Made by a program: the position numbers and the translations under genes
Notes under the pieces: generated by a model
What the model was told of the DNA's origin: nothing
The model's database searches: none
The model's input: the letters and a program-made list of their open reading frames with translations, nothing else
In this document: in pieces, positions 8,000 to 53,657 of the stretch
Numbering within the stretch: position 1 is the first letter of the stretch
How the letters are laid out: each line of letters starts with the position of its first letter
Assembly: GCF_014195655.1 (NCBI RefSeq)
Contig: NZ_JACICD010000006.1
Location: forward strand, 186,001-250,000
Reading direction: 5' to 3'
Source: Ancylobacter tetraedralis
Lineage (GTDB): Bacteria; Pseudomonadota; Alphaproteobacteria; Rhizobiales; Xanthobacteraceae
Length of the DNA: 64,000 nt

Positions 8000-9430
8000 T
8001 CAGTCGCCGTAGCCGACGATGCCCTTGATCTCAAGGAAATCGTGCAGGCCGAAATCGGCATATTCGCGCCCGTTGCCGGACTGCTTGTAGCCGCCGAACG
8101 GCGCGAACAGGTCCCAGTCCGGGTAGTTCAGATAGACCGAGCCGGCTCGCAGCTTGCGGGCGACGCGGCGGGCCTCGGCGATATCCGTGCCCTGCACATA
8201 GGCGGCGAGGCCATAGGGCGTGTCATTGGCGATCGCGATGGCCTGATCGACGCTGTCATAGGGAAGGATCGCCAGCACCGGGCCGAAGATTTCCTCGCGC
8301 TCGATGCGCATGCCGGGCTTCACGTCGCCGAACACGGTGGGCTTCACGTAATAGCCGGTCTCCAGCCCTTCGGGCTTGCCCGTGCCGCCGGTCACCAGCG
8401 TCGCGCCCTCGTCGATGCCGGCCTGGATCAGGCCCTGCACCTTGGCGAACTGCACGTCGCTGACCAGCGGGCCGATCTGCGTCTCCACATCGGTGGGGAC
8501 GCCCACGCGCAGCGCCTCGGCGGCGCGGCGGGCGATGGCGAGCGCTTCCGTGTGGCGATCGGCCGGCACCAGCATGCGGGTCGGGGCGTCGCAGGACTGG
8601 CCGGTATTGCCGAAACAGGCGTTCACGCCCTGCGACACCGCGACCTCGAGATCGGCATCGGGGAGCACGATGTTGGCCGACTTGCCGCCGAGTTCCTGCG
8701 CGACGCGCTTGACCGTCGCGGCGGCATTGCGCGCCACGTCGATGCCGGCGCGGGTGGAGCCGGTGAAGGACACCATGTCGATATCGGGATGCGAGGACAG
8801 CGCGGCGCCCACTTCCGGCCCGGTACCGTTGACGAGGTTGAACACGCCCTTCGGCAGGCCGGCCTCATGCAGGATCTCGGCGAAGACGATGCCGGAGACC
8901 GGGGCGATCTCGGACGGCTTCAGCACCATGGTGCAGCCGGCGGCGATGGCCGGCGCCACCTTGCACATGATCTGGTTGAGCGGCCAGTTCCACGGCGTGA
9001 TCAGCCCGACCACGCCGACCGGCTCATGGGTGACGCGAGTGGTGCCGCGCGTCTCGTCGAACTCGAAGCGGCGGAACGCCTCGATGGTCGCCTTCAGATG
9101 GCCGAGCCCGGCATAGGCCTGCGAATCGCGGGCGCGGGCGATGGGCGAGCCCATTTCGCGGCTGATCGCCTGGGCGACATCCTCGTAGCGGCGCTCATAC
9201 ACTTCCAGCAGGCGCTCCAGAAGCGCGAGGCGTTCCTCCTTGGATGTGAACTGGAAGCTCGCGAACGCCGCGCGGGCCGCCGCCACCGCACGGTCGACAT
9301 CGGCCTGCGTGCCGAGCGAAATGGTGGCGAATACCTGTTCCGTCGCGGGATCGACGACGCCGAGCGGCCGATTCTCAATCGGGTCGACGAAGGCGCCGTC
9401 AATGTAGAATTTCTGCATATTGGGGGTCAT
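8000..9430 (-). CDS. NAD(P)-dependent aldehyde dehydrogenase
   Basis: Oxidises an aldehyde to the acid in the cytoplasm. The 476-residue protein has all class-defining residues: N149 in TPWNWPLNQ, general base E246 in QELGGKSAN and nucleophile C280 in NTGQSCDAP, plus EEIFGPVLAI and the C-terminal PFGGYKQSGNGRE. It follows a PuuB-like oxidase and the PotABCD genes, so the likely substrate is an aminoaldehyde from polyamine or gamma-glutamyl-polyamine oxidation. The sequence alone does not fix this. The chosen ATG (MTPNMQKFYID) leaves 35 bases after the oxidase stop; a TTG at 9469 overlapping that stop is possible but less likely. Confidence 0.9.
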   Translation of the reverse strand: MTPNMQKFYIDGAFVDPIENRPLGVVDPATEQVFATISLGTQADVDRAVAAARAAFASFQFTSKEERLALLERLLEVYERRYEDVAQAISREMGSPIARARDSQAYAGLGHLKATIEAFRRFEFDETRGTTRVTHEPVGVVGLITPWNWPLNQIMCKVAPAIAAGCTMVLKPSEIAPVSGIVFAEILHEAGLPKGVFNLVNGTGPEVGAALSSHPDIDMVSFTGSTRAGIDVARNAAATVKRVAQELGGKSANIVLPDADLEVAVSQGVNACFGNTGQSCDAPTRMLVPADRHTEALAIARRAAEALRVGVPTDVETQIGPLVSDVQFAKVQGLIQAGIDEGATLVTGGTGKPEGLETGYYVKPTVFGDVKPGMRIEREEIFGPVLAILPYDSVDQAIAIANDTPYGLAAYVQGTDIAEARRVARKLRAGSVYLNYPDWDLFAPFGGYKQSGNGREYADFGLHDFLEIKGIVGYGD

Positions 9431-9465
9431 GCGAATCTCGTTTCTTGTCGCGAGGAAGGCGTGGG

Positions 9466-10782
9466 TCAAATGCCGAGCGCGTTACGCGCGCGACCATAAC
9501 CGATACGGATGGCCGCGCCGATTGGCCAGAAGCGGTGGAACGGATAGGTCGTGAAGGGGCGCACCGGCATGTCCAGAGCGTGCTCGGGCGTGCCGGTGGC
9601 CCAGCGCGCCAGCTCGCCGCCCATCGCCGTCGCCATGGCGACGCCCCGTCCATTATAGCCGATGCAGGCAACCAGCCCCGGCGCGGGCGCGGCGATGACG
9701 GGATAATGATCCATGGTGATCCCGAGCTGGCCGTTCCAGCCGTGGCTCCACCGGATATCGGCGAGGAACGGCCAGAGCCGCCGGGTATAGCGCTGGAGAT
9801 CGGCAAACGGCGCGGGGCCGTGCAACGGCTGCAGCCGGCTGCGCCCGCCCATGAGCAGCCGGTTGGCCGCATCCAGCCGGTAATAGACGGTGATCGATTC
9901 ATGCTCGTACAGCACATGGCGCCCCGGCAGGATGCGCGCCGCCTCCCGCTCCGCCAGCGGCTCGGAGGCGATGATGCCGCTGAAGACCGGCACCACCGCG
10001 CGCTTCAGGCCCGGCCAGAGGTCATCGGTATAGCCATTGGTGCCGAGGATGACGCGCGCCGCGCGGATCTGCCCGGTGGGGGTGGCGAGCATCCAGCCAT
10101 CCGAAATTCGCGCCAGCGAGAGTGCCGGCGTGTGGCTGAACAGGCGGGCACCCGCGCCCGCCGCCGCGCGGGCGAGCCCCCGGCTATAGGCCAGCGGGTT
10201 GAGCGCGCCGCCGCGCCGGTCTAGCGCCGCCGCCGTGTAGCGCGTGGTGCCGGTGGCCTGCGCCACCGCCTCGCGGTCCAGCCACTCCACCGGCATGCCG
10301 CGCCGCTGCAGCTCCGCCGTGGCCCGCTCCAGAAAGGCCACCGAGCCCGCGCTGAAGGCCGCCCGCAGGGTGCCGGTGCGCCGGGCCTCGCAGGCGATGC
10401 CGGCCTCGCTCACCAGCTGAAACACCTTGTCCGGCGCGGTGAAGGCAAAGGCGACCATGCGCGCGCCCAGTTCGGGCCCGAACGTCCTCTCGATTTCGGC
10501 CGGCTCGTGCTTCAGGCCCGGATTGACCTGCCCGCCATTGCGGCCGGACGCCCCCCAGCCGAAGCCGTGCGCCTCCACCAGCGCGACGCGGACCCCGGCC
10601 TTGGCGAGATGATAGGCGGACGAGAGCCCGGTAATGCCCCCGCCCACCACGGCGACGTCGACCCGCAGGTCGCCGTCCAGCCTCTCGCCCGCCGGTTCCG
10701 CGCCGGCGGTGAGGGCATAGACGGCGTCGGCATTGTGCACAGGGGCAGCGCCGCCGGCCGGGTTCCCGGCATTCAAGGTCAT
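9466..10782 (-). CDS. PuuB/OrdL-like FAD-dependent amine oxidoreductase
   Basis: A 438-residue D-amino-acid-oxidase-fold flavoprotein. Residues 42-60 hold the dinucleotide-binding VDVAVVGGGITGLSSAYHL, followed by GASGRNGGQVNPG, the signature of gamma-glutamylputrescine oxidase PuuB and relatives. The C-terminus has YNGRGVAMATAMGGELA. It would oxidise an amine, giving an aldehyde, ammonia and H2O2, with the aldehyde passed to the dehydrogenase encoded next. No glutamate-putrescine ligase (puuA) gene is present in this window, so the true substrate could be a free polyamine or another amine. The ATG at 10782 was preferred because the upstream extension is low-complexity. Confidence 0.85.
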   Translation of the reverse strand: MTLNAGNPAGGAAPVHNADAVYALTAGAEPAGERLDGDLRVDVAVVGGGITGLSSAYHLAKAGVRVALVEAHGFGWGASGRNGGQVNPGLKHEPAEIERTFGPELGARMVAFAFTAPDKVFQLVSEAGIACEARRTGTLRAAFSAGSVAFLERATAELQRRGMPVEWLDREAVAQATGTTRYTAAALDRRGGALNPLAYSRGLARAAAGAGARLFSHTPALSLARISDGWMLATPTGQIRAARVILGTNGYTDDLWPGLKRAVVPVFSGIIASEPLAEREAARILPGRHVLYEHESITVYYRLDAANRLLMGGRSRLQPLHGPAPFADLQRYTRRLWPFLADIRWSHGWNGQLGITMDHYPVIAAPAPGLVACIGYNGRGVAMATAMGGELARWATGTPEHALDMPVRPFTTYPFHRFWPIGAAIRIGYGRARNALGI

Positions 10783-10926
10783 CGCGGATGGTCTCCAGCT
10801 GAACGTTCGGCGGTGGCGGGGCGCGTCGGCCGCCCCGCAGGATGGTGCGCCCGGTGGATCAAGGGATAATCGCAGGCAGCGGCTCATGCACGGCAGTCCC
10901 TTGGTGGAGGGTTGGCAGCGATGAGG

Positions 10927-12021
10927 TCAGCCGTCGGCCGGCAGCAGCGCGCACGCCGCCCCGGCCCGGACCGAGACGGACAGCCGGTCGCCCGGCCCCA
11001 CCGAGGCGGGAAAGGCGCCGCGCGCGACATCTGCCATGAGAGCGGGGCCGCAGGCGAGGCGCAGGTGAACGCGCAGGCTGCGCCCCTGGAACGAGGTGCC
11101 CTCCACGATGCCGGATGCCGCGCCGGAGGGACCCTCGCCGGGCGCCAGAACCACATCCTCCGGCCGAATGCCGACGAGCATGTCGGACAGGGGCATCACC
11201 CCGGCGCGCCCGGCCAGCGGCACCTGGAAGGTCATGCCCCCGGCGGCAACGGTGGCGCCGGCATCGCCGGTCGCACCGATCCGCGCCGGCAGCAGGTTCA
11301 TCGCGCCGATGAAGCTGGCGACGAAACGGGTGGCCGGCCCGTCATAAAGCGTTGCCGGCGAGGCGACCTGCTCGATGCGGCCGCGATTCATCACCACGAT
11401 ACGGTCCGAGATCGACAGCGCCTCGGTCTGGTCATGCGTGACCATCACGAAGGTGGTGCCAAGCTCGCGCTGCAGCCGCTTCAATTCCAGCTGCATCTGC
11501 TCGCGCAGATTGGCGTCGAGCGCCGACAGCGGCTCGTCGAGCAGCAAGAGCCGCGGCTGGCAGACCAGCGCCCGCGCCAGCGCCACGCGCTGCCTCTGCC
11601 CGCCCGACAGAGCCTGCACGCGTTGCCCGGCCTTGTCCGAGAGGCCGACCATGGCCAGCGCCTCCGCCACGCGCCGCGCCCGCTCCGTGCCGGCTATCGG
11701 GCGCAGCGAGAGGCCGAAGCCGACATTCTCCGCCACGTTCATGTGCGGGAACAGCGCATAGTCCTGGAACACGGTGTTGACCGGCCGGGCGAAGGGGCGC
11801 AGCGCGGTGATGTCGCGGCCGTCGATCCGCAGGCGGCCGGCAGTGGGCGTGTCGAAACCGGCGATCACCCGCAGCGTGGTGGTCTTGCCGCAGCCGGACG
11901 GGCCGAGCAGGCTGAGGAATTCACCCTCGGCGATGTCGAGGCTGATATCGTCCATGCCGACGACCCCGCCGTCAAAGCGCTTGCTCACCCGCTCCAGCCG
12001 CAGCAGTGCCTCATTCGCCAT
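10927..12021 (-). CDS. potA: PotA-type ABC transporter ATP-binding protein
   Basis: Energises polyamine-type uptake. The 364-residue protein has Walker A GPSGCGKTTT (40-49), Q-loop FQDYALFPH, signature LSGGQRQRV, Walker B LLLLDEPLSALD and the switch His (VTHDQ). It continues into a C-terminal TOBE regulatory domain (LVGIRPEDVVLAPG). This is the CUT1/POT organisation. Its start lies 11 bases inside the XRE-cupin regulator gene, so the two are co-translated. Matching permeases and binding protein are encoded upstream on the same strand. About 140 bases with no recognisable gene separate it from the oxidase. Confidence 0.9.
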   Translation of the reverse strand: MANEALLRLERVSKRFDGGVVGMDDISLDIAEGEFLSLLGPSGCGKTTTLRVIAGFDTPTAGRLRIDGRDITALRPFARPVNTVFQDYALFPHMNVAENVGFGLSLRPIAGTERARRVAEALAMVGLSDKAGQRVQALSGGQRQRVALARALVCQPRLLLLDEPLSALDANLREQMQLELKRLQRELGTTFVMVTHDQTEALSISDRIVVMNRGRIEQVASPATLYDGPATRFVASFIGAMNLLPARIGATGDAGATVAAGGMTFQVPLAGRAGVMPLSDMLVGIRPEDVVLAPGEGPSGAASGIVEGTSFQGRSLRVHLRLACGPALMADVARGAFPASVGPGDRLSVSVRAGAACALLPADG

Positions 12022-12625
12022 CGCGCGGCTCCTTCGCCTTCTGGCTGTTCACCCACACGATGCTGCAACGCTCGGGCCGGGTGTTGCGGAACGCGTGCAG
12101 CAGCGTGCTCTTGAAGGCGAAACTGTCGCCGGCCTTCAGCACGTAGCGCGTGGCATCCACCGTCAACTCGATCTCTCCTTCGGCAACGAAACCGAATTCG
12201 TGGCCGGAATGGGAATAGGCATCGGTTCCCCCGCCCGGTTCGACGACCACCATCATCCCGGTGAGCACCGCACCGGGGGGCGACAGAAGATCCTTGGCGA
12301 TGCCTTCCGACTGCACGGGCAGCGGGCGCCGCCTGCCCGCGCGCACGCAGTAGAGATCGTTCTCCGCCTCGTCATCGGCCACGATCAGGGCCGATGGCTC
12401 GACGTCGAGGGCGGCGGCCAGCGGCCACATCACCCGCACCCGCAGCGAGGTCATGCCGCGCTCGATCTGGCTGAGCGCGCCGATGGATATGCCGGCCCGG
12501 GCGGCGAGATCGGCAAGCGGGAGATTGCGGGCGAGCCGCAGTGCCCGCACACGCCGCCCCACGCGGATATCGGCCTCGTCGGGGTCCCGGCCGGCCCGGT
12601 CCGTCACATCTGCAGCGTCACTCAT
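12011..12625 (-). CDS. XRE-cupin transcriptional regulator (PuuR-like)
   Basis: A 204-residue regulator. It has an N-terminal Cro/C1 helix-turn-helix (about residues 26-80, ADLAARAGISIGALSQIERG) and a C-terminal cupin (PGGGTDAYSHSGHEFGFV, then KAGDSFAFKSTLLHAF). This is the architecture of PuuR and related regulators, in which the cupin senses the imported ligand. Placed between potD and potA it most likely controls the whole locus. The ATG at 12625 starts a normal short leader before the HTH domain. The operator was not identified with confidence. Confidence 0.87.
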   Translation of the reverse strand: MSDAADVTDRAGRDPDEADIRVGRRVRALRLARNLPLADLAARAGISIGALSQIERGMTSLRVRVMWPLAAALDVEPSALIVADDEAENDLYCVRAGRRRPLPVQSEGIAKDLLSPPGAVLTGMMVVVEPGGGTDAYSHSGHEFGFVAEGEIELTVDATRYVLKAGDSFAFKSTLLHAFRNTRPERCSIVWVNSQKAKEPRDGE

Positions 12626-12645
12626 CCATCCGTCCCTGTCTGCGG

Positions 12646-12681
12646 CGCGTCTCCCGGCGACCATCATCGCCGGGAGACGCG
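12646..12681 (-). terminator. Strong hairpin between potD and the regulator
   Basis: A perfect 15-bp stem (12646-12660 with 12667-12681) with a 6-base loop CCATCA lies in the 115-base gap after potD. No U tract follows on the minus strand. It may act as a partial terminator, or as an mRNA-stabilising element that keeps the binding protein more abundant than the distal genes. Confidence 0.65.
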
Positions 12682-12740
12682 GGCGCGCCGGCCGCCCGCA
12701 CCAGCCGCCCGTCTCCGTCTCGTCCCGTATCCCGGCAGTA

Positions 12741-13811
12741 TCAGCCGCCCGCCTTCACCTTCTCGAACATCTTGGCAAGATCGTCGGCCTGCTTCATCGG
12801 CCCGGTGAAGATGGTGGTCTTCAGCGCCACATTCGGGTCGGCGGGCAGTTGCAGGGCCTCCAGCGTCTCCTTCGGGACGGCATCGAAGGCGCTCGTGGTC
12901 GAGGCGCCGTAGCCGTAATCCTCGATCAGCTTCTGTCCGGAACTGGCTTCCAGCCGGCTGTTGATGAAGTCATAGGCGAGGTCGGCATGCGGACTACCCT
13001 TGAGCAGGACGAAGCCGCAGGCCCAGGTGAGCATGCCCTCCTTCGGCTTCATGAACGCCACCGGCACGTTCTGCTTCTTCAGCGCCACCGCCGAGGCATT
13101 CCACGTCATCGCCGCCACCAGCTGGCCGCTGGCGAGCGCCTGCTCCACCGAGGTCATGTCGGTGGTGTAGCTCGACAGCAGCGGGCGCTGCTCGCGCAGC
13201 TTGGCGGCCACGATGTCCATCTGCGCCGGGGTCATGTCGAACGGGCTGACCCCGGTCAGCAGGGCCGCGACGACCGGAGTGTCGTGCACCGCATCGATGG
13301 TGGCGAGGCGCCCGCTATAGGCCTTGTCCCACAACAGGTTCCAGCTGGCCTCGGGATCCTTCACCAGATCGGTGCGGTAGAGGATCGAGGTGTTGCCCCA
13401 GTCCCACGGCACCATCCACACCGTGCCCGGGCCGGCCTGCAGGTCCGGCAGGTCGCGGAACACCGGGAAGATCTTGTCCCAGTTCTTGATCCGCGATGTC
13501 TCGATGGGCTCGATCAGCCCCTCCCGGCTCCACCGCGCGACCTTGTCGTAGCAGGGATGCGCCAGATCCGGCCGGAAGCCGGCCTTGACCTTGGTGAAGG
13601 CATCATCGTCGTCGCCAAAGGTCGAGGTGTCGACCCCGTCGGCATGCGCCTTGAGATAGGTGGCGTCGAACTCGGGCAGTTCGTAGCCGGACCAGGTGAA
13701 ATAGGTGAGCTTGTCGCCCGCCGAGGCGGCCATCGGCGAGAGGGCCGTGGCACAGGCGAGCGCGGCGGCGAGGAGGCTGGACAGGATCGGTCTCGGCGTC
13801 TTCTGGGACAT
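12741..13811 (-). CDS. potD: PotD-like periplasmic polyamine-binding protein
   Basis: A solute-binding protein of the spermidine/putrescine type, 356 residues. The signal peptide covers about the first 31 residues (ends SPMAASA). The mature N-terminus is GDKLTYFTWSGYELPEF, where the Trp-Ser-Gly pattern matches the PotD/PotF ligand-cleft strand. Later DWGNTSILYRTD and WNLLWD are also typical of the family. The start has GGAGAA eight bases upstream. It is encoded after the two permeases and before the regulator and ATPase. Ligand preference cannot be read reliably; putrescine, spermidine or a related amine are the candidates. Confidence 0.87.
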   Translation of the reverse strand: MSQKTPRPILSSLLAAALACATALSPMAASAGDKLTYFTWSGYELPEFDATYLKAHADGVDTSTFGDDDDAFTKVKAGFRPDLAHPCYDKVARWSREGLIEPIETSRIKNWDKIFPVFRDLPDLQAGPGTVWMVPWDWGNTSILYRTDLVKDPEASWNLLWDKAYSGRLATIDAVHDTPVVAALLTGVSPFDMTPAQMDIVAAKLREQRPLLSSYTTDMTSVEQALASGQLVAAMTWNASAVALKKQNVPVAFMKPKEGMLTWACGFVLLKGSPHADLAYDFINSRLEASSGQKLIEDYGYGASTTSAFDAVPKETLEALQLPADPNVALKTTIFTGPMKQADDLAKMFEKVKAGG

Positions 13812-13866
13812 GTCGGTTCTCCGTTGATCGACGCTCGATGGCGTTCTTCTGGAAGGATTCGGGAGC

Positions 13867-13898
13867 GCGGGCATTCACGAGGGCGGGCATTCACGAGG
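13867..13898. repeat. Tandem duplication of 16 bp at the potC stop
   Basis: GCGGGCATTCACGAGG is present twice head-to-tail (13867-13882 and 13883-13898). The copies span the potC stop codon and the start of the potC-potD gap. It looks like a recent small duplication with no effect on the potC product beyond its last residues. Confidence 0.8.
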
Positions 13899-14709
13899 GC
13901 AGGCGTCGCAGGCCGCGCCGGCGCAGCAGTTCGGCCGCACCGGCGATGAGGATCGAGGAGACGAGGATCGCCGTGCCAAGCGCCATGACCGTCGGCAGCG
14001 ATTTGGGAAAGCGCAGCTGGCTCCAGATGTAGAGCGGCAGGGTCGGCTGCGTGCCCGCGAGGAAGAAGGCGACGATGAACTCGTCGAAGCTGGTCAGGAA
14101 GGCCAGCATGAAGGCGGAGATGGCGGCGGGCAGCGCCAGCGGCAGCATGACGCGTCGGAACACGATGGCATCGCTGGCGCCCAGGTCCTGCGCCGCCTCG
14201 GGGATGCTGCGCGGCACGGCTTTGAGGCTGCCGCGAATGAGGATGACCGTGGTCGGCAGCGCCACCAGCACATGGCCCAGCACGATCGCCAGCCGGGAGG
14301 GGCCCAGCCCGATGAGATTGACCGCGATGAGCAAGGAAATGCCCACCACCACGCCGGGAATGAGGATCGGCATGCGCGCGAGGCCCGCGATCAGCCGGGA
14401 CAGCCGCGAGCGCAGGGTAAGTTCGGCATAGGCGATGGTCATTCCGCAAAGCGTGGCGAGAAACGCCGCGCAGACCCCGATGCCGAGGCTGGTCATCAGC
14501 GCCGCCTTCAGCGCCTCATTGCCGGCGAGACCGCGATACCAGTCCAGCGTGAAACCCTTCAGCGGAAACGCCGCCTGCACGGAATCGTTGAAGGAGAACA
14601 GCGGGATCAGCACGATCGGCAGATAGAGGAAGACGAGATAGGCCACGATGTAGACGCCGAGCCAGCGCGGCCGGCCGGGCGCCGAGGGAGCGGGAGCGGC
14701 GAGATTCAC
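13891..14709 (-). CDS. potC: PotC-type ABC transporter permease
   Basis: Inner-membrane permease, 272 residues with about six helices. The EAA loop lies near residues 170-185 (IPEAAQDLGASDAIVFRRVMLP), where it contacts the PotA-type ATPase. The N-terminal YIVAYLVFLYLPIVLIPLFSFND is typical of PotC. The start codon overlaps the potB stop (ATGA), showing tight coupling. Confidence 0.9.
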   Translation of the reverse strand: MNLAAPAPSAPGRPRWLGVYIVAYLVFLYLPIVLIPLFSFNDSVQAAFPLKGFTLDWYRGLAGNEALKAALMTSLGIGVCAAFLATLCGMTIAYAELTLRSRLSRLIAGLARMPILIPGVVVGISLLIAVNLIGLGPSRLAIVLGHVLVALPTTVILIRGSLKAVPRSIPEAAQDLGASDAIVFRRVMLPLALPAAISAFMLAFLTSFDEFIVAFFLAGTQPTLPLYIWSQLRFPKSLPTVMALGTAILVSSILIAGAAELLRRRGLRRLPS

Positions 14710-15584
14710 AGACGGCTCCCGAAACGGCGGTCGCCCTGGCGGACGAGGAGGATCACGGCGAGGATCACCAGCATGACGACAAGGGCGAGCGCCGCGCCGA
14801 ACGGCCAGTCCTGCGCCTTGCCGAACTGCGCCTGGATCAGGCTGCCGATCATCGTGCTGCTCGGCCCGCCGACCAGCGCGGGGGTGACATAGTCGCCGAC
14901 CGTCGGCACGAACACGACCACCGCGCCCGCCAGCACGCCCGGCATCGAGTTGGGCAGGATCACCCGCCGGAACACGGTGAACGGGGTCGCCCCGAGATCG
15001 GCCGCCGCCTCGGCCAGCGAGCGGGGAATGGCATCCAGCGACACGAGGATCGGCAGGATGGCGAAGGGCGCGTAGGCATGCGCCAGCGTCAGCACCACGG
15101 CGGCCGGCGTGTTCAGCAGCGCGGTCGACGGCTCGCTCCAGAGGCCGGCGGCGATGAGGCCGGAATTGAGCACCCCATTATAGGCCAGCACGATCTTCCA
15201 GGCGAAGACCCGCAGCAGGTAGCTGGTCCAGAACGGCAGCGTGACGAGAAACAGGATCAGCGCCCGCGACCGCGCATGGAAGGACAGGTAGTACGCCACG
15301 GGATAGGCGGTGACGACCGTCGCAGCCGTCACGAGACCGGCAATCGTCAGCGAGCGCAGGATGACCCGTCCATAGAGCGGCTCGGTGGCGAGGATGCTGA
15401 AATTGCCGAGCGTGAAACCGGCCCCGAACAAGGACCCGTCATTGAAGCGGAACGCGAGGATGGCGAGAAGGCCGAGCGCGAACAGGATCAACCCGAGCGT
15501 GACGACCGATCCCGGCAGCATCAGCGCCGCGCGGAAGGCCGAACCGGGTCGTTGGGGCTGTCCAGAAGTGCCGAGATCGGCCAT
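14706..15584 (-). CDS. potB: PotB-type ABC transporter permease
   Basis: The partner permease, 292 residues. It has a hydrophobic first helix, a periplasmic loop (FTLGNFSILATEPLYGRVI), the TSYLLRVFAWKIVL segment common in PotB proteins and an EAA loop (LAEAAADLGATPFTVFRRVILP). It is the first gene of the transport locus. GTG at 15587 directly precedes the ATG at 15584; the ATG is chosen here. A TTGACA-like promoter element lies about 55 bases upstream. Confidence 0.9.
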   Translation of the reverse strand: MADLGTSGQPQRPGSAFRAALMLPGSVVTLGLILFALGLLAILAFRFNDGSLFGAGFTLGNFSILATEPLYGRVILRSLTIAGLVTAATVVTAYPVAYYLSFHARSRALILFLVTLPFWTSYLLRVFAWKIVLAYNGVLNSGLIAAGLWSEPSTALLNTPAAVVLTLAHAYAPFAILPILVSLDAIPRSLAEAAADLGATPFTVFRRVILPNSMPGVLAGAVVVFVPTVGDYVTPALVGGPSSTMIGSLIQAQFGKAQDWPFGAALALVVMLVILAVILLVRQGDRRFGSRL

Positions 15585-15612
15585 CACCGCCCCATCAGAG
15601 TGAAACAGGCGA

Positions 15613-16261: not shown

Positions 16262-17806
16262 TCAGCCCAGAGAGAACAGTGTCTCGTCCGCCAGTCCAGC
16301 GCGCAGGGTCCGCAGCAGGGGGGCGTCGTGCAGGATCGCGGCGACACGGTCGGCGTCGGGACCATTCTCCCGATCGTCCTCCAGCATCGGAATTTCGGCG
16401 CGGATCGCCTCGTAGAGGGCGCCGGTCGTCGGGGCGAGACGCGGCGCGCCGCGCAGATCCACGGCCTGGGTGGCGACGAGCGCCTCGATCGCGAAGATCA
16501 GCCGCAGCGGCAGGATCTGCTCCTCGAGCTTTCGGATGGCCAGCGGCGTCTGCGGCGCATGATCCTCGACGGATTCCGATACCGGGATCGAATCCGTACT
16601 GGCCGGGAAGGCTTTCAGGCGCACTTCCCCCTGCAGGGCGGATACCGTCTTCTGCATGGAGTTGTAACCGTTCGAGGCCCCCCCGAGCGGGGACAGGTAT
16701 TTGGGCAGGCCCGACAATTGCGCGTTCATCATCTTGATGGTGCGATAGGCCGAGGCGGTGGCGAGTTGCGTATTGGCGATCGCCATCGTGTCGAAGCTGA
16801 GCGCGATGTCGGGCGTGTGGAAATTCGCCGTCGACCGAATCAGGTCGTCGTCAGCCATGACCAGCGGGTTGTCGGCGGCGCCGTTGACCTCCGTCCGGAC
16901 ACTGCCGACTGCCGTTTCGAAGCTCGCGAGAGCCGGGCCGTATATTTGCGACAGCACACGGAAGCACAGCGCATCCTGGATCGAGCGCGCCGCACCCTCG
17001 TCATGGAGATAGCTGCCGCTGAGGGCGGCACGGAAGGCGCGCGCCGCCGTCTCCTGTCCCCGCGCCGGACGGGCTGCCGCGAGGCGGGCGTCGAAAATCC
17101 GGGGATTGGCGGCATAGCCCTCCCCCGCGAGCGCCGCAACCGCCATGGACGCGACCAGCACGTCGGAAAGCTCCGCCAGCACGAGCGAGGCATACCCGCA
17201 CGAGACGGCGCTCGCGTTGAGGATGGCCAGCCCATCCTTGGGGCCGAGCCGCGCCGGCGCCAGGCCAGCGGCGCGAAGCGCCTCGCCGGCAGGCTGGCGT
17301 CTCCCCTGCACGTAGACCTCGCCACGTCCGATCAGCGTCGCGCCGATATGGGCACACAGACCCAGATCCCCACCGCCGATGGAGCCTCGTCCCGGCACCA
17401 CGGGGGTGATACCCGCGTTGAACATGGAGACCATGAGGTCGAGCACCGCGGGCGTGATGCCCGAACCACCCTGCGCCATGCCGATGATACGGCACAACAG
17501 CATCGCCCTGCCCGCCCGCTCCGGGAACGCCTCGCCGACGCCGATGCAGCGCCCGCGAACCATCTTGACCTGGAAAGCCTCGATCTCCTCCGGCGGAATC
17601 CGGTAGCCGACATTCCCGCCGAGGCCGGTGTTGAGCCCGTAGATCGGCTCGTCGCCGCTCGCATAGCGATCCACCACCGCACGCGCGGCCGCCACGCGCG
17701 CGACAGCGGCGGGATCGAGCGCGATCTGGCTCCCCTGTTCGACAAGCGACAGGATGGCGCCGAGACTGACGGTCGTCGAACCCAGTTGAATGAGACTCAC
17801 GCGCAT
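16262..17806 (-). CDS. Histidase-fold lyase lacking the MIO tripeptide
   Basis: A 514-residue member of the histidine/phenylalanine ammonia-lyase superfamily. Conserved active-site features are present: Y56 in IYGLNTGLGG, N197, QDALCFR, NFHTPDIAL and ESVEDHAP. Classic members build the electrophilic MIO cofactor from Ala-Ser-Gly in RGSVGASGDL. Here residues 140-148 read RGSIGGGDL, one residue shorter and without the Ser that becomes dehydroalanine, so MIO cannot form. MIO-free eliminations are known in this fold, as in ergothionase, which expels trimethylamine. The Rieske gene 40 bases upstream resembles quaternary-ammonium oxygenases, which fits such a substrate. It is not a functional histidase by this reading. 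Confidence 0.85.
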   Translation of the reverse strand: MRVSLIQLGSTTVSLGAILSLVEQGSQIALDPAAVARVAAARAVVDRYASGDEPIYGLNTGLGGNVGYRIPPEEIEAFQVKMVRGRCIGVGEAFPERAGRAMLLCRIIGMAQGGSGITPAVLDLMVSMFNAGITPVVPGRGSIGGGDLGLCAHIGATLIGRGEVYVQGRRQPAGEALRAAGLAPARLGPKDGLAILNASAVSCGYASLVLAELSDVLVASMAVAALAGEGYAANPRIFDARLAAARPARGQETAARAFRAALSGSYLHDEGAARSIQDALCFRVLSQIYGPALASFETAVGSVRTEVNGAADNPLVMADDDLIRSTANFHTPDIALSFDTMAIANTQLATASAYRTIKMMNAQLSGLPKYLSPLGGASNGYNSMQKTVSALQGEVRLKAFPASTDSIPVSESVEDHAPQTPLAIRKLEEQILPLRLIFAIEALVATQAVDLRGAPRLAPTTGALYEAIRAEIPMLEDDRENGPDADRVAAILHDAPLLRTLRAGLADETLFSLG

Positions 17807-17846: not shown

Positions 17847-19103
17847 CTATTGGGCGGCGGCGGGACAGGCGGCCGGGCCGGCGAATTCCTGCATCGTGCG
17901 GGCATACCATTCCACGAAGGTCCATACGCCGTGCTCAGAGGCCTCGGCATAGGGGCCGGGGCGATAGCCGACGGAGCGGACGCCGCGCTGATTGCGCTCG
18001 ACAAGCCGTCGGTCCTGTTCGTTGGTCTCGCGCCAGACCTGGACGAGCCGTTCCAGATCGTAGTCCACGCCTTCGACCGCCTCGGAATGAACGACCCAAT
18101 GGCAGGTAACGGTCGTCTCCTCGGCCGATTTCGGCAGCATCTGCACAACGATGGCGTAGTCGGCGTGGATATGGCCGAACATGCTGGGATAATGGGTGAA
18201 GCGCAGCGAGCCGATATCCGGGTCCGGCCTGTCGCCAAGGCGCCTGGCGACAGCCGGCTGCCCATCCATCGTGATCGAGAGATTTCCCTCTTTGAAGGGC
18301 ATGCGGCCGACGCGAAAATCGGCTCCGTCCCGGGTAACGCTCGGCAGGCCGGCGGCTTCGCAGCGCTGCCAGAACGACGCGATGTACGGATCGCTCCAGG
18401 GATCGGCAAAGTCGAAAATCAACAATGTGTTCATCAGTTCAGGGTGGCCGGCCTGGCAATGGTCGCATTCACGGGCGTTCTCCATGACAAGCTTCCAGTT
18501 GCCCCGCTCATGCAGGGTCACCGAATGCACGACCTTGCCATTGGCCAGCGCGTGCGGCGCCGCCGCGGGTGCAAGCACCGCGGCGAGCGGCTCGATATCG
18601 GGCGCCTCGTCCGCGAGGCAGACATAGATCAGCCCGGCAATGTCGCGAATGTGGACGGGGCGCAGGCCAAGCTGGGACTTGTCGGCAGCGGGGTCGAGGT
18701 TCGGCGCACGCACAAGCCGCCCGCCCAGATCATAGGTCCAGTGATGATAGGGGCAGACAAAAGACGATTTGTGCCCGCACGGCTGGTCGACGACAATCGA
18801 ACCGCGATGGCGGCATGTATTGAAGAAGGCGCGTACGTGCCGCTCGCGATCGCGGCAGACGATGACGGAGGTCTCGCCGATCTCGAAGCAGAAGAAATCA
18901 CCGGGCTCGCGAATCTGGCAGGAAAGGCCAGCGAAGATCCAGCGCGCTTCAAAGACGGCCTGCATGTCCAGCCGGAAGAATTCGGGGTCGGTATAGAAAG
19001 ACCTCGGCAGCGAGGTGTGCGGGGACCGCACGCGCAATAGTTGCGCCATCCTCTCCCGAGCACTCGCGCGAGACCCTGCTACTTCAAACAGATCGCCATC
19101 CAT
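17847..19103 (-). CDS. Rieske oxygenase alpha subunit, quaternary-ammonium type
   Basis: A 418-residue Rieske non-haem iron oxygenase. The [2Fe-2S] ligands are C97/H99 (CRHRG) and C117/H120 (CPYHHW). The catalytic iron site is in ENARECDHCQAGHPEL, with H215 and H220 and Glu212 ahead of the Cys. The ECxHCxxxHP pattern resembles glycine betaine and carnitine oxygenases (GbcA, CntA) and differs from ring-hydroxylating dioxygenases. It probably demethylates or cleaves a trimethylammonium compound. No reductase gene is nearby, so electrons must come from elsewhere. It is transcribed with the lyase and divergently from the regulator. The substrate is inferred. Confidence 0.85.
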   Translation of the reverse strand: MDGDLFEVAGSRASARERMAQLLRVRSPHTSLPRSFYTDPEFFRLDMQAVFEARWIFAGLSCQIREPGDFFCFEIGETSVIVCRDRERHVRAFFNTCRHRGSIVVDQPCGHKSSFVCPYHHWTYDLGGRLVRAPNLDPAADKSQLGLRPVHIRDIAGLIYVCLADEAPDIEPLAAVLAPAAAPHALANGKVVHSVTLHERGNWKLVMENARECDHCQAGHPELMNTLLIFDFADPWSDPYIASFWQRCEAAGLPSVTRDGADFRVGRMPFKEGNLSITMDGQPAVARRLGDRPDPDIGSLRFTHYPSMFGHIHADYAIVVQMLPKSAEETTVTCHWVVHSEAVEGVDYDLERLVQVWRETNEQDRRLVERNQRGVRSVGYRPGPYAEASEHGVWTFVEWYARTMQEFAGPAACPAAAQ

Positions 19104-19179: not shown

Positions 19180-19208
19180 TTGACATTGGCGGTATCTGGT
19201 TGTCATTT
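19180..19208 (+). promoter_or_regulatory. Candidate promoter of the XRE regulator
   Basis: TTGACA (19180-19185) is followed by 17 bases and TCATTT. The -35 match is exact and the -10 weak. If real, transcription starts near 19215, which rules out a TTG start at 19200 and supports the GTG at 19257. Confidence 0.35.
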
Positions 19209-19256
19209 GATTTGAATAGTAAAAATCGTAAACTGATTGATGCAGCAGGTGCGAAA

Positions 19257-20105
19257 GTGAACGCGATCGATTCTGCAGCCACCTTTCGCCGACGCCTGCA
19301 ATCCCTGATCGACCGCTCGGGACTCAATCAGGCCGCCTTTGCCCGCATGACGACGATCGACCGCTCGACGCTGTCACAGCTTCTCTCGGCGGACGGCGCG
19401 CGAATGCCGCGCGCGGACACGCTCGTCGCGCTCGCCAGCGCCTGTCACGTCTCGGTCGATTGGCTGCTCGGCCTGACCACCCATGAGGAGGTCGGCACGC
19501 AGATCATCGACTCGGTCATGCAGATTCAGGCCCACACGCGCTCCCCTATCGATGAGCGGTTCGTGGAATGGCTGCGCGAGGCGGAGGGTTATCGTGTGCG
19601 TACCGTGCCCGAGAGCTTTCCCGATTTCCTGAAGACCGAGGACGTCCTTCGCTTCGAATATCAGGGATCGGCCTTCAACAAGATCGTGGGCTCGCTCGAT
19701 ATCGTGGAGACGCGCCTCGCCCTGATGCGCCGACCCGAGAGCGAGCTTGAAGTCTGCACGTCCGTCCAGGCCATCACCATGATGGCCAAGGGGGAAGGCA
19801 AGTGGGAAGGCCTCAGCAGGTCCGTGCGCCGCCGGCAGCTTGAGCATTTCGCACAGCTTTATTCGGAACTTTATCCAAGTCTCCGCATATATTTGTACAC
19901 TCTTACGGAGACTTACTCCAACCCCTTCACGGTATTCGGGCCCCAGCGCGTGGCCCTGTTCCTGGGCACCAGCTTCCTTCTGCTCAACAGCATCGAACAT
20001 ATCCGGCTTTTCAGCCGGCGGTTCGATGAGTTGATCAAGCTAGCCGTGGTGCAGCCCAATCAGGTGACGGATACTCTCGCGGACATTCTCAGCGAACTCA
20101 CCTAG
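19257..20105 (+). CDS. XRE-family regulator with large C-terminal domain
   Basis: A 282-residue regulator. Residues about 10-70 form a Cro/C1 helix-turn-helix (LNQAAFARMTTIDRSTLSQL) ending in VSVDWLLGLT. The remaining 200 residues are an unrecognised sensor domain containing YLYTLTETYSNPFTVFG and GTSFLLLNSIEHIRLFSRRF. It lies between the divergent lyase/Rieske pair and the nine-gene uptake operon, so it probably controls both. The frame is open to a TTG at 19200; the GTG at 19257 was favoured because a TTGACA element lies within the longer version. The ligand is unknown. Confidence 0.75.
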   Translation: MNAIDSAATFRRRLQSLIDRSGLNQAAFARMTTIDRSTLSQLLSADGARMPRADTLVALASACHVSVDWLLGLTTHEEVGTQIIDSVMQIQAHTRSPIDERFVEWLREAEGYRVRTVPESFPDFLKTEDVLRFEYQGSAFNKIVGSLDIVETRLALMRRPESELEVCTSVQAITMMAKGEGKWEGLSRSVRRRQLEHFAQLYSELYPSLRIYLYTLTETYSNPFTVFGPQRVALFLGTSFLLLNSIEHIRLFSRRFDELIKLAVVQPNQVTDTLADILSELT

Positions 20106-20449: not shown

Positions 20450-21997
20450 ATGATGGACCATTTCATGTCGCGTCGTGCGTTCGTCGGAGCATCGGCGGCC
20501 GCGCTCACGATAGCCATGAGCGCAAGCTCCTCGGTCTCGGCCCAGCCCAAAAGCAGCATCACCGTCCGGATCGACCGGGACATCACGGCGCTGGACCCGG
20601 CCTTCCGCGGCGGCCCACATGACGCGAATGTCGTACGAGCGGTGTTCCAGAGGCTTGCGGCGCTGAAGGTCGACGGGACCGGCCTCGAACTCGACGCCGC
20701 AGCCGAACTGAAGCAGGTCGATCCGACGCTCATCGAGTTCACCCTCAAGCCCGGCCAGATGTTCACCGACGGCTTCGGCGAGATGACCGCCGAGGACGTC
20801 AAGTTTTCCTTCGAGCGTTTCGCCGTAGCGCCGGTCGACGGCAAGGTATCGCCCTACAAGGCCGATTGGGCGGGGCTGACCGAGGTTGAAGTCACGGGAA
20901 CCTATACGGGTCGCATCAAGCTGTCGGCTCCCAATGCCGGACTGATGACGGTCGCAATCGGCGACTGTTCGGGTTGCATCGTCTCGAAGAAGGCGGTTCT
21001 GGAGCGCGGGACGGAGCACAACACTCATCCGGTCGGCTCGGGGCCCTATCAGGTCGCTTCCGTGGAGAAGCAACGCGGCGCGGTGCTGCGTCGCAACCCG
21101 GACTATAAGGGCGCCAGGCCGGCATTCGAGGAAATCCGCGTCAACTTCATCCAGGATCCCAAGACCACCGAGCTCGCGTTGCGCTCAGGTGAGCTCGACT
21201 TTGCTGTTCTGCCCCCCTCCATCGCCGAGCCGATGCGCGGCGCGAGCGGCCTCAGCGTCGAGAACTATCCCGGCCTCGCCTATATCTGGCTGGGCATCAA
21301 CATGCAGAAGGCGCCCTTCACCGACATGCGCGTGCGCCAGGCCGTGCGGCTCGCGCTCGACGTCGACCAGATGCTGCTTGCCGGCTTCAATGGCAAGGCG
21401 CCGCGCCTCAACGCTCTGGTGATGCCGCCCGTGCTCGGGTACTGGAAGGACGCTCCGGTCTACAAGCGCAACGTTGCGGAAGCCCGCCGCCTGTTGGCTG
21501 AAGCCGGCCAGACCTCGATCAAGACGCGCATCACCATTCTCAATCAGCCGGCTTACCAGAGCATGGCTCTGGTCGCCCGCGCCCTGCTGCAGGAAGTGGG
21601 CATCAGCGCCGAAGTCGATGTCCAGGAGGGCGGCACGTACTGGGACGCCGGAAAGGGCGAAGCCGGCAAGAACATCGACATGTTCCTGATGCGCTTCAAC
21701 GGAAAGCTCGATCCCAGCTTCCTGATGCAATGGTTCACCTCCAGCCAGATCGGCCTGTGGAACTGGCAGCGCTTCGCCAGCCCGGAATATGACCAGCTCG
21801 CCCAGCAGGCGATCCGCGAACTCGACCCCGCCAAGCGCGCCGAGATCGCCATCAAGGCCCAGCAGGAAATGGACAAGTCGGCCGCGTTCGTCTGGCTGAC
21901 CAACGATGTCGCCTATGTCGTGCGTCGCACCAACGTGAAGCCGGCATTCCTGCCGGGGGCGATCGACTGGCAGCTCGATAAATTCACCCCGGCCTGA
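20450..21997 (+). CDS. Dpp-type (family 5) periplasmic solute-binding protein
   Basis: A 515-residue ABC binding protein of the dipeptide/nickel class. The leader MSRRAFVGASAAALTIAMS has a twin-arginine pattern (SRRAF), suggesting export already folded by Tat. The mature protein starts QPKSSITVRIDRDITALDPA and carries DVKFSFERFA and YKGARPAFEEIRVNF, standard for the family. CAAGGGAA lies just upstream of the ATG. The ligand is not predictable; within this locus an amino-acid betaine or modified peptide is plausible. It is the first of nine same-strand genes, most of them overlapping or separated by a few bases. Confidence 0.88.
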   Translation: MMDHFMSRRAFVGASAAALTIAMSASSSVSAQPKSSITVRIDRDITALDPAFRGGPHDANVVRAVFQRLAALKVDGTGLELDAAAELKQVDPTLIEFTLKPGQMFTDGFGEMTAEDVKFSFERFAVAPVDGKVSPYKADWAGLTEVEVTGTYTGRIKLSAPNAGLMTVAIGDCSGCIVSKKAVLERGTEHNTHPVGSGPYQVASVEKQRGAVLRRNPDYKGARPAFEEIRVNFIQDPKTTELALRSGELDFAVLPPSIAEPMRGASGLSVENYPGLAYIWLGINMQKAPFTDMRVRQAVRLALDVDQMLLAGFNGKAPRLNALVMPPVLGYWKDAPVYKRNVAEARRLLAEAGQTSIKTRITILNQPAYQSMALVARALLQEVGISAEVDVQEGGTYWDAGKGEAGKNIDMFLMRFNGKLDPSFLMQWFTSSQIGLWNWQRFASPEYDQLAQQAIRELDPAKRAEIAIKAQQEMDKSAAFVWLTNDVAYVVRRTNVKPAFLPGAIDWQLDKFTPA

Positions 21998-22027: not shown

Positions 22028-22987
22028 ATGCGCGAAACGCTCCGGTACGTTGCCAGTCGATTGGCGACGACGTTCCTGATTGTCCTGGGTGCGATGATCC
22101 TGCTCTTCGCACTCTCGGCGCTGGTACCCGGCGATCCCGCCACCGCCCTGCTGGGGCCCGCGGCGACGCCCGAATATGTGCAGCGTTTCATTCAGGAGAT
22201 GGGGCTGGACCAGCCGTGGTATCGCCGGCTGTTCAGCTTCATGGGGAACGTGTTCGTCGGAAACCTCGGGACCGACGTTCTGTCGGGGCAGCCCGTCACG
22301 CGGATCATTGCCAATGTGCTGCCCTATACGTTCATCCTCACCTTCAGCTCCATCGGCCTTGCCGTCGCCTTCGGCGTTCCGCTCGGGTGCTATGCCGCCA
22401 CGCATCGCGGCTCGCTGCTCGACCACCTGCTTGCCTTCGTCAGCGTGGCGTTCATCGCCATCCCGTCCTTCGTGATAGCGATCTTTCTTCTGCTCATCTT
22501 CGCGATCTGGCTGGACTGGCTTCCGGTCATGGGAGCGGGCGAGGCGGGAAACTGGTTCGACCAGGCCCAGCGCCTGATCCTGCCGACGATCGCGCTCAGC
22601 GTCGGCTGGATCGGGTTCATCGCCCGGCTGGTCCGCAGTTCCATGCTGGAGACGATGGGGGAGAACTTCATCCGGCTATCGCGAGCCTACGGACTTTCCA
22701 ACCGTCTCATCACCTACAAATACGCGCTCAAGAACGCCTGCATTCCCACCCTCGCGGTGCTCGGCATGGGGGTTGGGCGCCTGCTCGGCGGCGCGGTCCT
22801 GGTCGAGATCGTGTTCTCCCGGCCCGGTCTGGGCCGGCTGATGTTCGATGCGATCTCGACGCGCAACTTCCCCGTTCTGCAGGGCACCGTGCTGGTGGTC
22901 GTTCTCATCTTCGTGCTGACGAACCTGCTGGTCGATCTCAGCTATGCGGCCATCGACCCGCGCATTCGCCGTCAGGGATCCCGATGA
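22028..22987 (+). CDS. DppB-type ABC transporter permease
   Basis: A 319-residue inner-membrane permease. The N-terminal RYVASRLATTFLIVLGAM and the GDPATALLGPAATPEYV segment are typical of the DppB/OppB N-terminal region. About six helices are present, with the conserved IARLVRSSMLETMGENFIRL and RAYGLSNRLITYKYALKNA EAA region. It forms the channel with the next permease, whose ATG overlaps its stop (ATGA). Confidence 0.92.
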   Translation: MRETLRYVASRLATTFLIVLGAMILLFALSALVPGDPATALLGPAATPEYVQRFIQEMGLDQPWYRRLFSFMGNVFVGNLGTDVLSGQPVTRIIANVLPYTFILTFSSIGLAVAFGVPLGCYAATHRGSLLDHLLAFVSVAFIAIPSFVIAIFLLLIFAIWLDWLPVMGAGEAGNWFDQAQRLILPTIALSVGWIGFIARLVRSSMLETMGENFIRLSRAYGLSNRLITYKYALKNACIPTLAVLGMGVGRLLGGAVLVEIVFSRPGLGRLMFDAISTRNFPVLQGTVLVVVLIFVLTNLLVDLSYAAIDPRIRRQGSR

Positions 22988-23841
22988 CAGCCTTTGCCGC
23001 CACAAGGGCGACCATCGCCCGCATTCTGTCCGGTCCCGGCGGCATCGTCGGCACGATCATCATCGTGCTCGTCGTCGGGTCGGCGATCTTCGCGCCTCTG
23101 GTTGTCACGCACGACCCCGATGCGCTGGACATCCTCAATCGCTTCTCCGGCCCTTCCGCGGCGCACTGGCTCGGCACCGACAATCTCGGGCGAGACCTTT
23201 ACAGCCGCCTCGTCTACGGGGCGCGCGTCGCGATGATGGTGGCGCTGTTTGCCATCGGCTCGGCGCTGGTGGTGGGAACACTGCTCGGCATGCTCGCCGC
23301 ATCGCTGAACGCGCGCGGGGAGCGCCTGCTGCTGATCGTCTTCGACATCATCTCGTCCTTTCCCAGCCTCGTGCTGGCGCTTGCCGTGGTCGCCGTGTTC
23401 GGCCCGTCGACCGCACTGGTCACGGCGATCGTGGCGGTGACGCTGATGCCGCATTTCGGGCGGGTTGCCCGCGCGCAGATGCTCACCCTGCGCCACGCCC
23501 CGTTCGTCGAGGCGGAACGGCTCATCGGCGCCTCACCCGTGCGTATCGCGCTGTCGCATATCCTGCCGAACATTGCCGGCCCGCTCGTGGTGCTCGCCAG
23601 CATCGATATTCCGGTCGTCATCACCATTGAGGCCGGTCTGTCCTTCATCGGCCTGGGTGTGCGGCCGCCGCTCGCGAGCTGGGGCACGCTGATCTATGAC
23701 GGCTATGCCTACCTGTCGGATTCCAGGGTTCCGGTCATCGTCGCCAGCGCGGCTCTCGCCATCGCGACGCTGGGCTTCACCCTTTTCGGCGAAGCCTTGC
23801 GCGACGCGGTCGATCCCCGGCTCGATCGAGAGGGACGTTGA
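22984..23841 (+). CDS. DppC-type ABC transporter permease
   Basis: A 285-residue permease. HWLGTDNLGRDLYSRLVYGA is the DppC/OppC hallmark. A coupling-helix region (HAPFVEAERLIGASPVRIALSHI) and GLSFIGLGVRPPLASWGTLI follow. It pairs with the preceding DppB-type protein. One base separates its stop from the next start. Confidence 0.92.
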   Translation: MTAFAATRATIARILSGPGGIVGTIIIVLVVGSAIFAPLVVTHDPDALDILNRFSGPSAAHWLGTDNLGRDLYSRLVYGARVAMMVALFAIGSALVVGTLLGMLAASLNARGERLLLIVFDIISSFPSLVLALAVVAVFGPSTALVTAIVAVTLMPHFGRVARAQMLTLRHAPFVEAERLIGASPVRIALSHILPNIAGPLVVLASIDIPVVITIEAGLSFIGLGVRPPLASWGTLIYDGYAYLSDSRVPVIVASAALAIATLGFTLFGEALRDAVDPRLDREGR

Positions 23842-23842
23842 G

Positions 23843-24826
23843 ATGAACCCCGATCTCCCCATGATCACGATCCGCAACCTCAAGCTCGACGCCCGCACCG
23901 AGCACGGGCCGGCGCACATCCTGCGCGGCATTGATCTCGAATTCGGGCGCGGACGCATTGTCGGCGTGGTGGGCGAGTCCGGGTCGGGAAAGTCGACCCT
24001 CGTGTCCTGCCTGTTGCGGCTGCTGCCGAGCAACATCGAGCGGCTGGAGGGCGAGATCTTGTTCGACGGGATCGACCTCCTCAAGCTCTCCCCATCGGAT
24101 ATGAACGACTGGCGAGGACGCAAGATCGCCATGGTGTTCCAGGACCCGATGACGGCCCTCAACCCGCTCTTCACGATCAACACGCATCTCAGGGACGTAC
24201 TGAAACGGCGATTTCCGCAGATCTCCGCGCGCGAGGCCCGCGAGCGCAGCCTTGCCATGTTGACCAAGGTCGGCATTTCCGACGCTTCCGTCCGGCTTGA
24301 CGCCTATCCTCACCAACTCTCCGGCGGCATGCGCCAGCGTATCGTGATCGCGATGGCACTTCTGGTCGAGCCGGACCTGTTGCTCGCGGACGAGCCCACC
24401 ACGGCTCTGGACGCCACGGTCGAGGCACAGATCGTCGATCTGTTCGATCAGCTCCGGCAGGATTTTTCAGGCTCGATCGTCTTCATCTCGCATCATCTCG
24501 GCCTCGTTGCCGAGCTCTGCGACGACCTTTGCGTCATGTATGGCGGAACGATCGTGGAGACCGGCCCTGTCGCCGAGGTGCTGGCCCGGCCGCGCCATCC
24601 CTATACCCGCGCCCTGCTCGACTGCGAGATAGAAGACGACCATGGGGGGCGGCTCGCCACCATACCGGGCGAGGTGCCGAGCGCGACCTGGGCCATGGAT
24701 GCCTGCATCTTCGCCAGCCGCTGCGCCCATGTCGCCGACATCTGCCGCAGGGGGCCGACCGTACTGGAGACGGTCGCCATTGGCCACAAGGCCGCCTGCA
24801 AGCGCTCGCGGGAGGTTTTGCCGTGA
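23843..24826 (+). CDS. DppD-type ABC transporter ATP-binding protein
   Basis: A 327-residue ATPase. It has Walker [11 protein letters not shown]-loop [15 protein letters not shown], signature LSGGMRQRI, Walker [13 protein letters not shown] and switch His ([11 protein letters not shown]). The C-terminal peptide-transporter extension carries [10 protein letters not shown] and a Cys-containing tail ([14 protein letters not shown]) that may bind an iron-sulfur cluster as in other Opp/Dpp ATPases. The GTG start of the next gene overlaps its stop. Confidence 0.92.
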
Positions 24827-53625: not shown

Positions 53626-53657
53626 CGTTGTTCTCCTCATGTCGTTTCTCCCCCGCC

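Follow-up and report, generated by a model that had tools for sequence, protein, structure and literature searches.

Which reaction could be catalyzed by a lyase of the histidase fold whose MIO-forming residues are missing? In ammonia-lyases, MIO turns ammonia into a leaving group. Such a MIO-less protein (P0001) is encoded in the window, that is, the whole stretch of 64 000 nucleotides of Ancylobacter tetraedralis analyzed here, by an open reading frame that starts with ATG, reads from 17806 to 16262 on the minus strand and gives a product of 514 amino acids. The fold was assigned by profile and structure matches: PF00221 matched residues 15–470 with 450 bits (Pfam gathering score, 27.3), the hutH model TIGR01225 gave 386.1 bits, below its cut-off of 539.15, and the top solved relative in a PDB comparison was ergothionase (6s7j, 249 bits), with histidine ammonia-lyases narrowly behind. 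The loop RGSIGGGDL (residues 140–148; 17363–17389, minus strand) replaces the MIO-forming ASG loop. P0001 reads GSIG-GGDL against GSVGASGDL in P. putida HutH and has one residue fewer, Gly145 alone stands between GSIG and GDL, and the loop aligns without a gap to SSIGEGDI of 6s7j. As far as can be judged from the protein sequence, formation of MIO from an Ala-Ser-Gly triad is impossible in P0001. The first-pass annotation had reported this loop and the absence of the MIO tripeptide, and had suggested an alignment to ergothionase; the translated frame and the HutH and ergothionase alignments bear out the former, and the latter shows that the one-residue deletion is common to P0001 and 6s7j. An AlphaFold2 model built with five sequences reached a pLDDT of 52, too poor for use.

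Sequencing error and gene decay were both considered as sources of the loop and both were rejected. Full-length relatives were found in Ancylobacter amanitiformis (97% identity), Bosea (86%) and a Methylobacterium metagenome-assembled genome (MAG; 85%); the A. amanitiformis protein has the same loop as P0001, and the other two have GSIGAGDL. A loop type that recurs across independent genomes is not explained by a sequencing error. The dN/dS ratios of the gene against these three relatives were 0.124, 0.120 and 0.124, respectively, and the gene is under purifying selection; the earlier view that decay was unlikely thus agrees with a ratio of about 0.12 and the recurring loop. At the level of the order, 25 of 397 sampled genomes had a relative (E⩽1e-90), and all 25 relatives lacked the ASG triad. 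The corresponding counts were 6 of 385 in the class sample (E⩽1e-95) and 9 of 398 in the phylum sample (E⩽1e-90), two samples that partly share genomes. Within the genus, the gene was present in 2 of 30 genomes (E⩽1e-120) and is accessory; all these counts include the own genome.

Public records treat such proteins as ammonia-lyases: all ten annotated MIO-less proteins retrieved bear a name of this kind, eight of them HutH or histidine ammonia-lyase, and the remaining two are called 'aromatic amino acid ammonia-lyase'. Together with the conserved overall fold, these names would fit a dead paralog, or an ammonia-lyase in which residues other than ASG build a MIO-like group. We consider this extremely improbable given the single Gly145 in the loop, the score far under the hutH cut-off, the dN/dS of 0.12 and the presence of a proper HutH with ASG in the same genome, which lies on contig C7 near the sole urocanase of the genome, itself scoring as a canonical HutU. 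No HutU or HutG match was found near P0001 (window positions 4001–36000). PAL, TAL and the aromatic aminomutases depend on MIO; they share the PF00221 superfamily with P0001 and scored far lower. In addition, PALs with a disabled MIO are described as inactive in excerpts of two articles: for Rubrobacter PAL S153A a 'practically total loss' of activity is reported (PMC3903478), and PbPAL S154A lost hydroamination (PMC12535398).

To place P0001 among its relatives, we used a tree of 67 rows (22 of an earlier 89 were omitted, namely near-duplicates, L036 and L058_14528), in which no root was inferred. P0001 belonged to a clade of 34 rows (support 100/98), separate from a clade of six rows with the Treponema denticola ergothionase (100/100). 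A branch with support 100/99 parted 41 rows (both clades and L020) from 26 rows on the HutH side. Two of these 26 represent a third MIO-less type, which makes more than one loss or gain of MIO probable. The clade of P0001 is a large overlooked family; in the open-licence literature, no account of it was found in titles and abstract openings among the matches listed.

A comparison of 36 MIO-less rows with 3 MIO rows revealed which parts of the active site were retained (codons on the minus strand). Tyr56 (HutH Tyr53; 17639–17641), Arg283 (HutH Arg283; 16958–16960) and Glu414 (HutH Glu414; 16565–16567) were kept in all 36 MIO-less rows. The first-pass annotation had listed Tyr56, Asn197, EDH and NFH as kept, which was confirmed, with NFH at 328–330 and EDH at 414–416. 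P0001 thus resembles HutH (TIGR01225) in fold, Tyr53, Asn195, Gln277, Arg283, NFH and EDH, and differs from it, apart from the missing ASG/MIO and the score under the family cut-off, by four further active-site changes (HutH numbering): F59>L, H83>R, Y280>L and V386>K. These four had been absent from the earlier annotation. They form part of a coordinated pattern among the MIO-less rows, in which S143 was deleted in 36 of 36, F59>L occurred in 35 and Y280>L in 33, Lys386 (ergothionase chain Lys383; 16649–16651) was found in 34 of 36 vs Val in all three MIO rows, and the position of HutH His83 (Arg86 in P0001; 17549–17551) was Arg in 32 and His in 4. In HutH, His83 and Glu414 presumably contact the imidazole.

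The likeness to ergothionase (6s7j/6s7q) extends from the histidase fold, as recognized by sequence, and the loop deletion to the Tyr, Arg283, Lys386 (383 there), Glu414 (411 there) and Leu280. Tyr53, Lys383 and Glu411 (chain numbering) reportedly form the catalytic frame of ergothionase, according to work of Maurer from 2019, and their aligned counterparts in P0001 are Tyr56, Lys386 and Glu414. On the other hand, P0001 has Arg86 for His83, Asn197 for Ser195 and His330 for Glu330. His83 is kept in all six ergothionase-clade rows and also in at least two members of the clade of P0001 (L031 and L069). As P0001 differs from the characterized enzyme both in clade and in side-chain residues, we do not assign it to the ergothionase family; judged by these alignments, it is not simply an ergothionase, and its function is probably ergothionase-like. 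Positions 195 and 330 further split the clade of P0001 into Asn/His and Val/Asp sub-groups, so substrates may differ even within it.

Ergothionase expels trimethylamine. Compared with ammonia, trimethylamine leaves far more readily, and the electrophilic MIO would be unneeded. As P0001 has the ergothionase frame (Tyr56, Arg283, Lys386 and Glu414), the most economical interpretation is that it eliminates a tertiary amine without a cofactor, and a betaine lyase of some kind appears likely. More specifically, we see about an even chance that P0001 acts as a MIO-independent C–N lyase on an imidazole betaine, either hercynine or an ergothioneine-derived betaine, and releases trimethylamine from it; such histidine-derived betaines are the likeliest class of substrates. 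In such a reaction, the enzyme would bind the alpha-carboxylate of the alpha-trimethylammonium acid, Tyr56 would act as the base, Glu414 and Lys386 would activate the ring, and trimethylamine would leave without the aid of an electrophilic MIO. The resulting urocanate or 2-substituted urocanate would then enter the single canonical hut pathway of the genome. Ergothionase, which works without MIO according to an excerpt of PMC13405746, had already been named as a precedent in the earlier annotation, and its standing as the closest solved relative with the same deletion strengthens that choice. Hercynine, the substrate proposed there, would be possible; it is not singled out, considering Arg86, the sulfur-linked genes and the sets of CoA-transferase, SDR and MaoC genes without urocanase genes described below. 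Since the ergothionase clade keeps His where P0001 has Arg86, the substrate need not be ergothioneine.

The genes around P0001 offered further clues. Directly upstream, with a gap of 40 bp, lies a Rieske oxygenase of the glycine-betaine monooxygenase type (17847–19103, minus strand; PF00355 and PF00848), whose 431.6 bits with the GbcA model NF058607 fall short of the cut-off of 670. All the following genes are on the plus strand: a divergent HTH (XRE-type) regulator (19200–20105, start possibly at 19347; PF01381), a family 5 solute-binding protein of an ABC transporter (20450–21997; PF00496, 223.9 bits), an Opp/Nik-type ABC transporter with two permeases and two ATPases (22028–25788), an LDH2-family dehydrogenase (25788–26786; PF02615, 320.8 bits), an enolase-superfamily enzyme of the mandelate racemase/muconate lactonizing type (26783–27967; PF13378 and PF02746), an ornithine-cyclodeaminase-family protein (OCD; 28133–29134; PF02423, 183.2 bits) and a PhnD/AioX-like binding-fold protein (29149–29961; PF12974, 107.3 bits; AioX, 53 bits). 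Farther away, an NtaA/DmoA-family flavin monooxygenase (LLM; 34620–35939; TIGR03860, 530.3 bits with a cut-off of 279.7) is possibly part of the lyase regulon; relatives of it occur near the lyase in four other loci (L067–L070, at about 5 kb in L069), with no significant difference from 20 control loci (P=0.17). Downstream of the lyase (8000–15587, minus strand) are a polyamine-type ABC transporter, a PuuR-like regulator, a pipecolate-oxidase-like FAD enzyme and an aldehyde dehydrogenase, a set that is apparently separate from the lyase cluster. A pathway through these genes was rejected, because the aldehyde dehydrogenase, FAD oxidase, regulator and binding protein recurred only in A. amanitiformis among 31 loci compared with limited flanks. 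Sulfatase-like reading frames, judged from their first translated residues only, are present at 52012–55465.

We then counted the neighbors of 43 lyase loci and of 20 control loci around HutH matches of lyase-bearing genomes. L169, one of the controls, does not hold a genuine HutH, some of the loci with a lyase were short contigs, and the scan spanned 32 kb in the window, where the OCD is 10.3 kb from the lyase, and at most about 21.5 kb elsewhere. An OCD with at least 60% identity was found in 25 of the 43 lyase loci vs 1 of 20 controls, the PhnD-like protein in 14 vs 0, and YeiH in 8 vs 0 (P=0.047). Here and below, P-values are only indicative, given the relatedness of the loci and the picking of plasmid loci by hand from match lists. 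The OCD is the most conserved partner of the lyase. In 24 other lyase loci it was 68–83% identical to that of the window, and the lyases of the same loci were 32–68% identical to P0001 (most of them 38–53%). Among the 397 genomes of the order sample, both genes were present in 19, the lyase only in 6, the OCD only in 6 and neither in 366 (lyase E⩽1e-90, OCD E⩽1e-135; Fisher P=2e-22, uncorrected for relatedness). Two of the six OCD-only genomes (L172 and L174) carry a sub-threshold lyase of the clade beside the OCD, and no lyase was detected within about 9 kb of the OCD in the other four. A search of 28 lyase genomes for the OCD at a threshold of E⩽1e-80 was positive in 25. This partner resembles the OCD/ketimine-reductase family (PDB 6t3e, 154 bits; 1omo, 142 bits), including Lys74 and Arg117, which are conserved in at least 95% of rows, and differs from it by a Cys196 that is invariant in 39 of 39 rows; it remained under the cut-off of every NCBIfam model that it matched. 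In the PhnD-like protein, Cys61 was found in 18 of 18 rows. No signal peptide was evident by eye at the PhnD-like N-termini, with starts chosen by script near that of the window protein and annotated lengths in agreement where compared.

The link to the Rieske enzyme of the quaternary-ammonium type, to which the first-pass annotation had drawn attention, was found to be weaker than claimed: the gene is indeed upstream of the lyase here, and only four of the 43 loci, those of the window and of its three nearest relatives, have a close relative of it (vs 0 of 20, P=0.3, not significant). A distant Rieske gene also lies beside the OCD–lyase pair in L174. MttB genes were found in 6 of 43 loci vs none of the 20 controls (P=0.16, not significant), and in three loci (L040, L041 and L042) an MttB-family gene immediately precedes the lyase. 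The quaternary-ammonium context as such is better supported, both by these MttB genes and by choline/betaine ABC-type binding proteins, which were present near the lyase in 10 of 43 cases vs 0 of 20; this class was checked on the L050 protein only. In L041 and L042, the MttB-family methyltransferase gene ends with a stop codon that touches the frame of the MIO-less lyase, and in L040 MttB forms a fusion with a homocysteine methyltransferase domain. Rieske or MttB genes directly upstream of the lyase could also mean that the substrate is demethylated first, so that dimethylamine, or some other substituted amine, becomes the leaving group in the lyase reaction. Such a route seems very unlikely to us, considering that 33 of the 43 loci have neither gene, that dimethylamine leaves less readily and that these enzymes could equally process released trimethylamine.

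An alternative is that trimethylamine is eliminated from a non-imidazole betaine, whose acidic or aromatic side chain would be bound by Arg86, and that the enoic acid is then processed through CoA activation, hydration and oxidation. Consistent with this, 32 of 36 rows have Arg at the side-chain position, 40 of 43 loci have no urocanase nearby, the window cluster contains the LDH2 and enolase-family genes, and CoA-transferase, SDR and MaoC genes lie near the lyase in four rhizobial-type loci (L050, L063, L079 and L080), with SDR/MaoC also in L069. However, the four loci with CoA-transferase also have HutC-like repressors, Glu414, which we take to be an imidazole contact in HutH, is invariant, and the same OCD accompanies ergothionase-clade lyases and hut genes. 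On balance, a non-imidazole betaine is a real possibility, though a rather unlikely one.

It is the loci that combine the OCD with histidine or sulfur genes that favor an imidazole betaine. In Polaromonas (L073), the gene order is YeiH, ergothionase-clade lyase, TTT binding protein, OCD and PhnD-like. In Paracoccus (L074/L085), the order reported here is that of Paracoccus saliphilus, where HutC, PhnD-like, OCD and YeiH are followed by hut genes, the last of which is an ergothionase-clade lyase, and Paraburkholderia (L084) has OCD, HutU and an ergothionase-clade lyase in this order. MIO-less lyases are located within hut loci in L058, L074 and L177, and in G247 a lyase of the clade of P0001 follows hutG and faces OCD-CysNC-CysD (CysD is our reading of a PF01507 protein). 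In addition, the OCD immediately follows CysNC in L172 and L177, and the L050 regulator scored 282.6 with the HutC model (cut-off 220). From the OCD, hut, HutC, YeiH and CysNC contexts we infer imidazole betaines and, through YeiH and CysNC, sulfur. It should be noted that the imidazole and sulfur links come from a minority of loci: a HutU-type gene was near only 3 of 43, HutC-like genes near 5 (vs 15 of 20 controls, where they were commoner) and YeiH near 8.

These contexts also bear on whether P0001 could be a true ergothionase that converts ergothioneine to thiourocanate and trimethylamine, after which the OCD would reductively desulfurize thiourocanate to urocanate for the hut enzymes. The known ergothioneine route with thiourocanate hydratase (NF058530; Burkholderia arboris, L078) likewise combines a MIO-less lyase with a urocanase-type enzyme. 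In the B. arboris stretch, which has no OCD, the hydratase scored 1050 bits, over the cut-off of 930, whereas the urocanases near the OCD and ergothionase-clade lyases of Paracoccus saliphilus and Paraburkholderia are canonical (943 and 967 bits; 676 and 688 with the hydratase model). In contrast to the known route, the genome of P0001 has a canonical urocanase only (689 bits with the hydratase model, cut-off 930). Like the canonical urocanases near the OCD, the enrichment of the YeiH-type ('sulfate exporter') genes, the OCD right after CysNC and the reductase homology and invariant Cys of the OCD speak for a true ergothionase combined with the OCD. Nevertheless, a true ergothionase is quite unlikely in view of the separate clade of P0001, its three substitutions (Arg for His83, Asn for Ser195 and His for Glu330) and a YeiH protein (L005) below the curated cut-off. 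An EgtU-type ergothioneine transporter at L050 was considered and rejected, since its OpuC-type binding protein scored 215 bits against choline/nicotine sensor proteins and 168 against EgtU, and the transporter of the window is of the Opp/Nik type; these scores also count against ergothioneine as the substrate.

Moreover, unlike ergothionase, P0001 is linked to the OCD and shows no link to thiourocanate hydratase. Of 34 genomes searched, four had a hydratase over the cut-off. Three of these (L188, L189 and L190) hold, in addition to a lyase of the clade of P0001, a second, His83-type MIO-less lyase (loop GSIGCADIGLMGQI, Ser-Leu for Phe-His) at 4–5 kb from the hydratase; in the fourth, no MIO-less lyase was found in the 14.5 kb around it. 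The second lyases, which are outside the tree, suggest that ergothioneine itself may be served by another enzyme, and in such genomes the clade of P0001 seems to do something other than ergothioneine cleavage.

Returning to elimination from an imidazole betaine, the OCD-family and PhnD-like proteins would be helpers, perhaps, as a guess, in sulfur removal. One could imagine a so far unrecognized pathway, with its genes seen in proteobacteria from plants and soil and in one case on a Streptomyces plasmid, and concealed by ammonia-lyase names where annotated, in which the Arg-type lyase frees trimethylamine from plain or sulfur-bearing histidine betaines, the OCD, as an NADPH enzyme with its invariant Cys, reductively removes the 2-thio group, and the product enters the histidine pathway without thiourocanate hydratase; this full scheme is speculative and, as a whole, fairly unlikely. 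If the proposed reaction is true, cofactor-free C–N elimination on the histidase fold would reach well beyond ergothionase, histidine betaines would be linked to two conserved partner proteins (OCD and PhnD-like), and Arg vs His at the selectivity position, together with three MIO-less lineages, would offer a natural comparison of the MIO-free fold. As MIO-less proteins carry ammonia-lyase names, the use of betaines and the production of trimethylamine in soil and plant bacteria are probably under-read.

The third MIO-less lineage, on the HutH side, has the loop GS[VA]GY followed by [LI][TS]H, with three residues missing. Its members are found in L058 (about 12978–14537, minus strand), L192 (from 9306), L193 (from 9037) and L194 (from 9201); Y280>L and V386>Y with His83 kept were seen in three proteins, and that of L194 is a further, similar one. 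In L058 the gene belongs to a hut operon and has a BCCT-type betaine transporter next to it, and in L193 and L194 a HutC-like gene lies about 4 kb away. Finally, an ergothionase-clade MIO-less lyase on pSymA of Sinorhizobium meliloti (L076, 8866–10506) has Ala at the position of Lys386, and a gene with the annotation dimethylsulfoniopropionate lyase lies 2.7 kb away from it.
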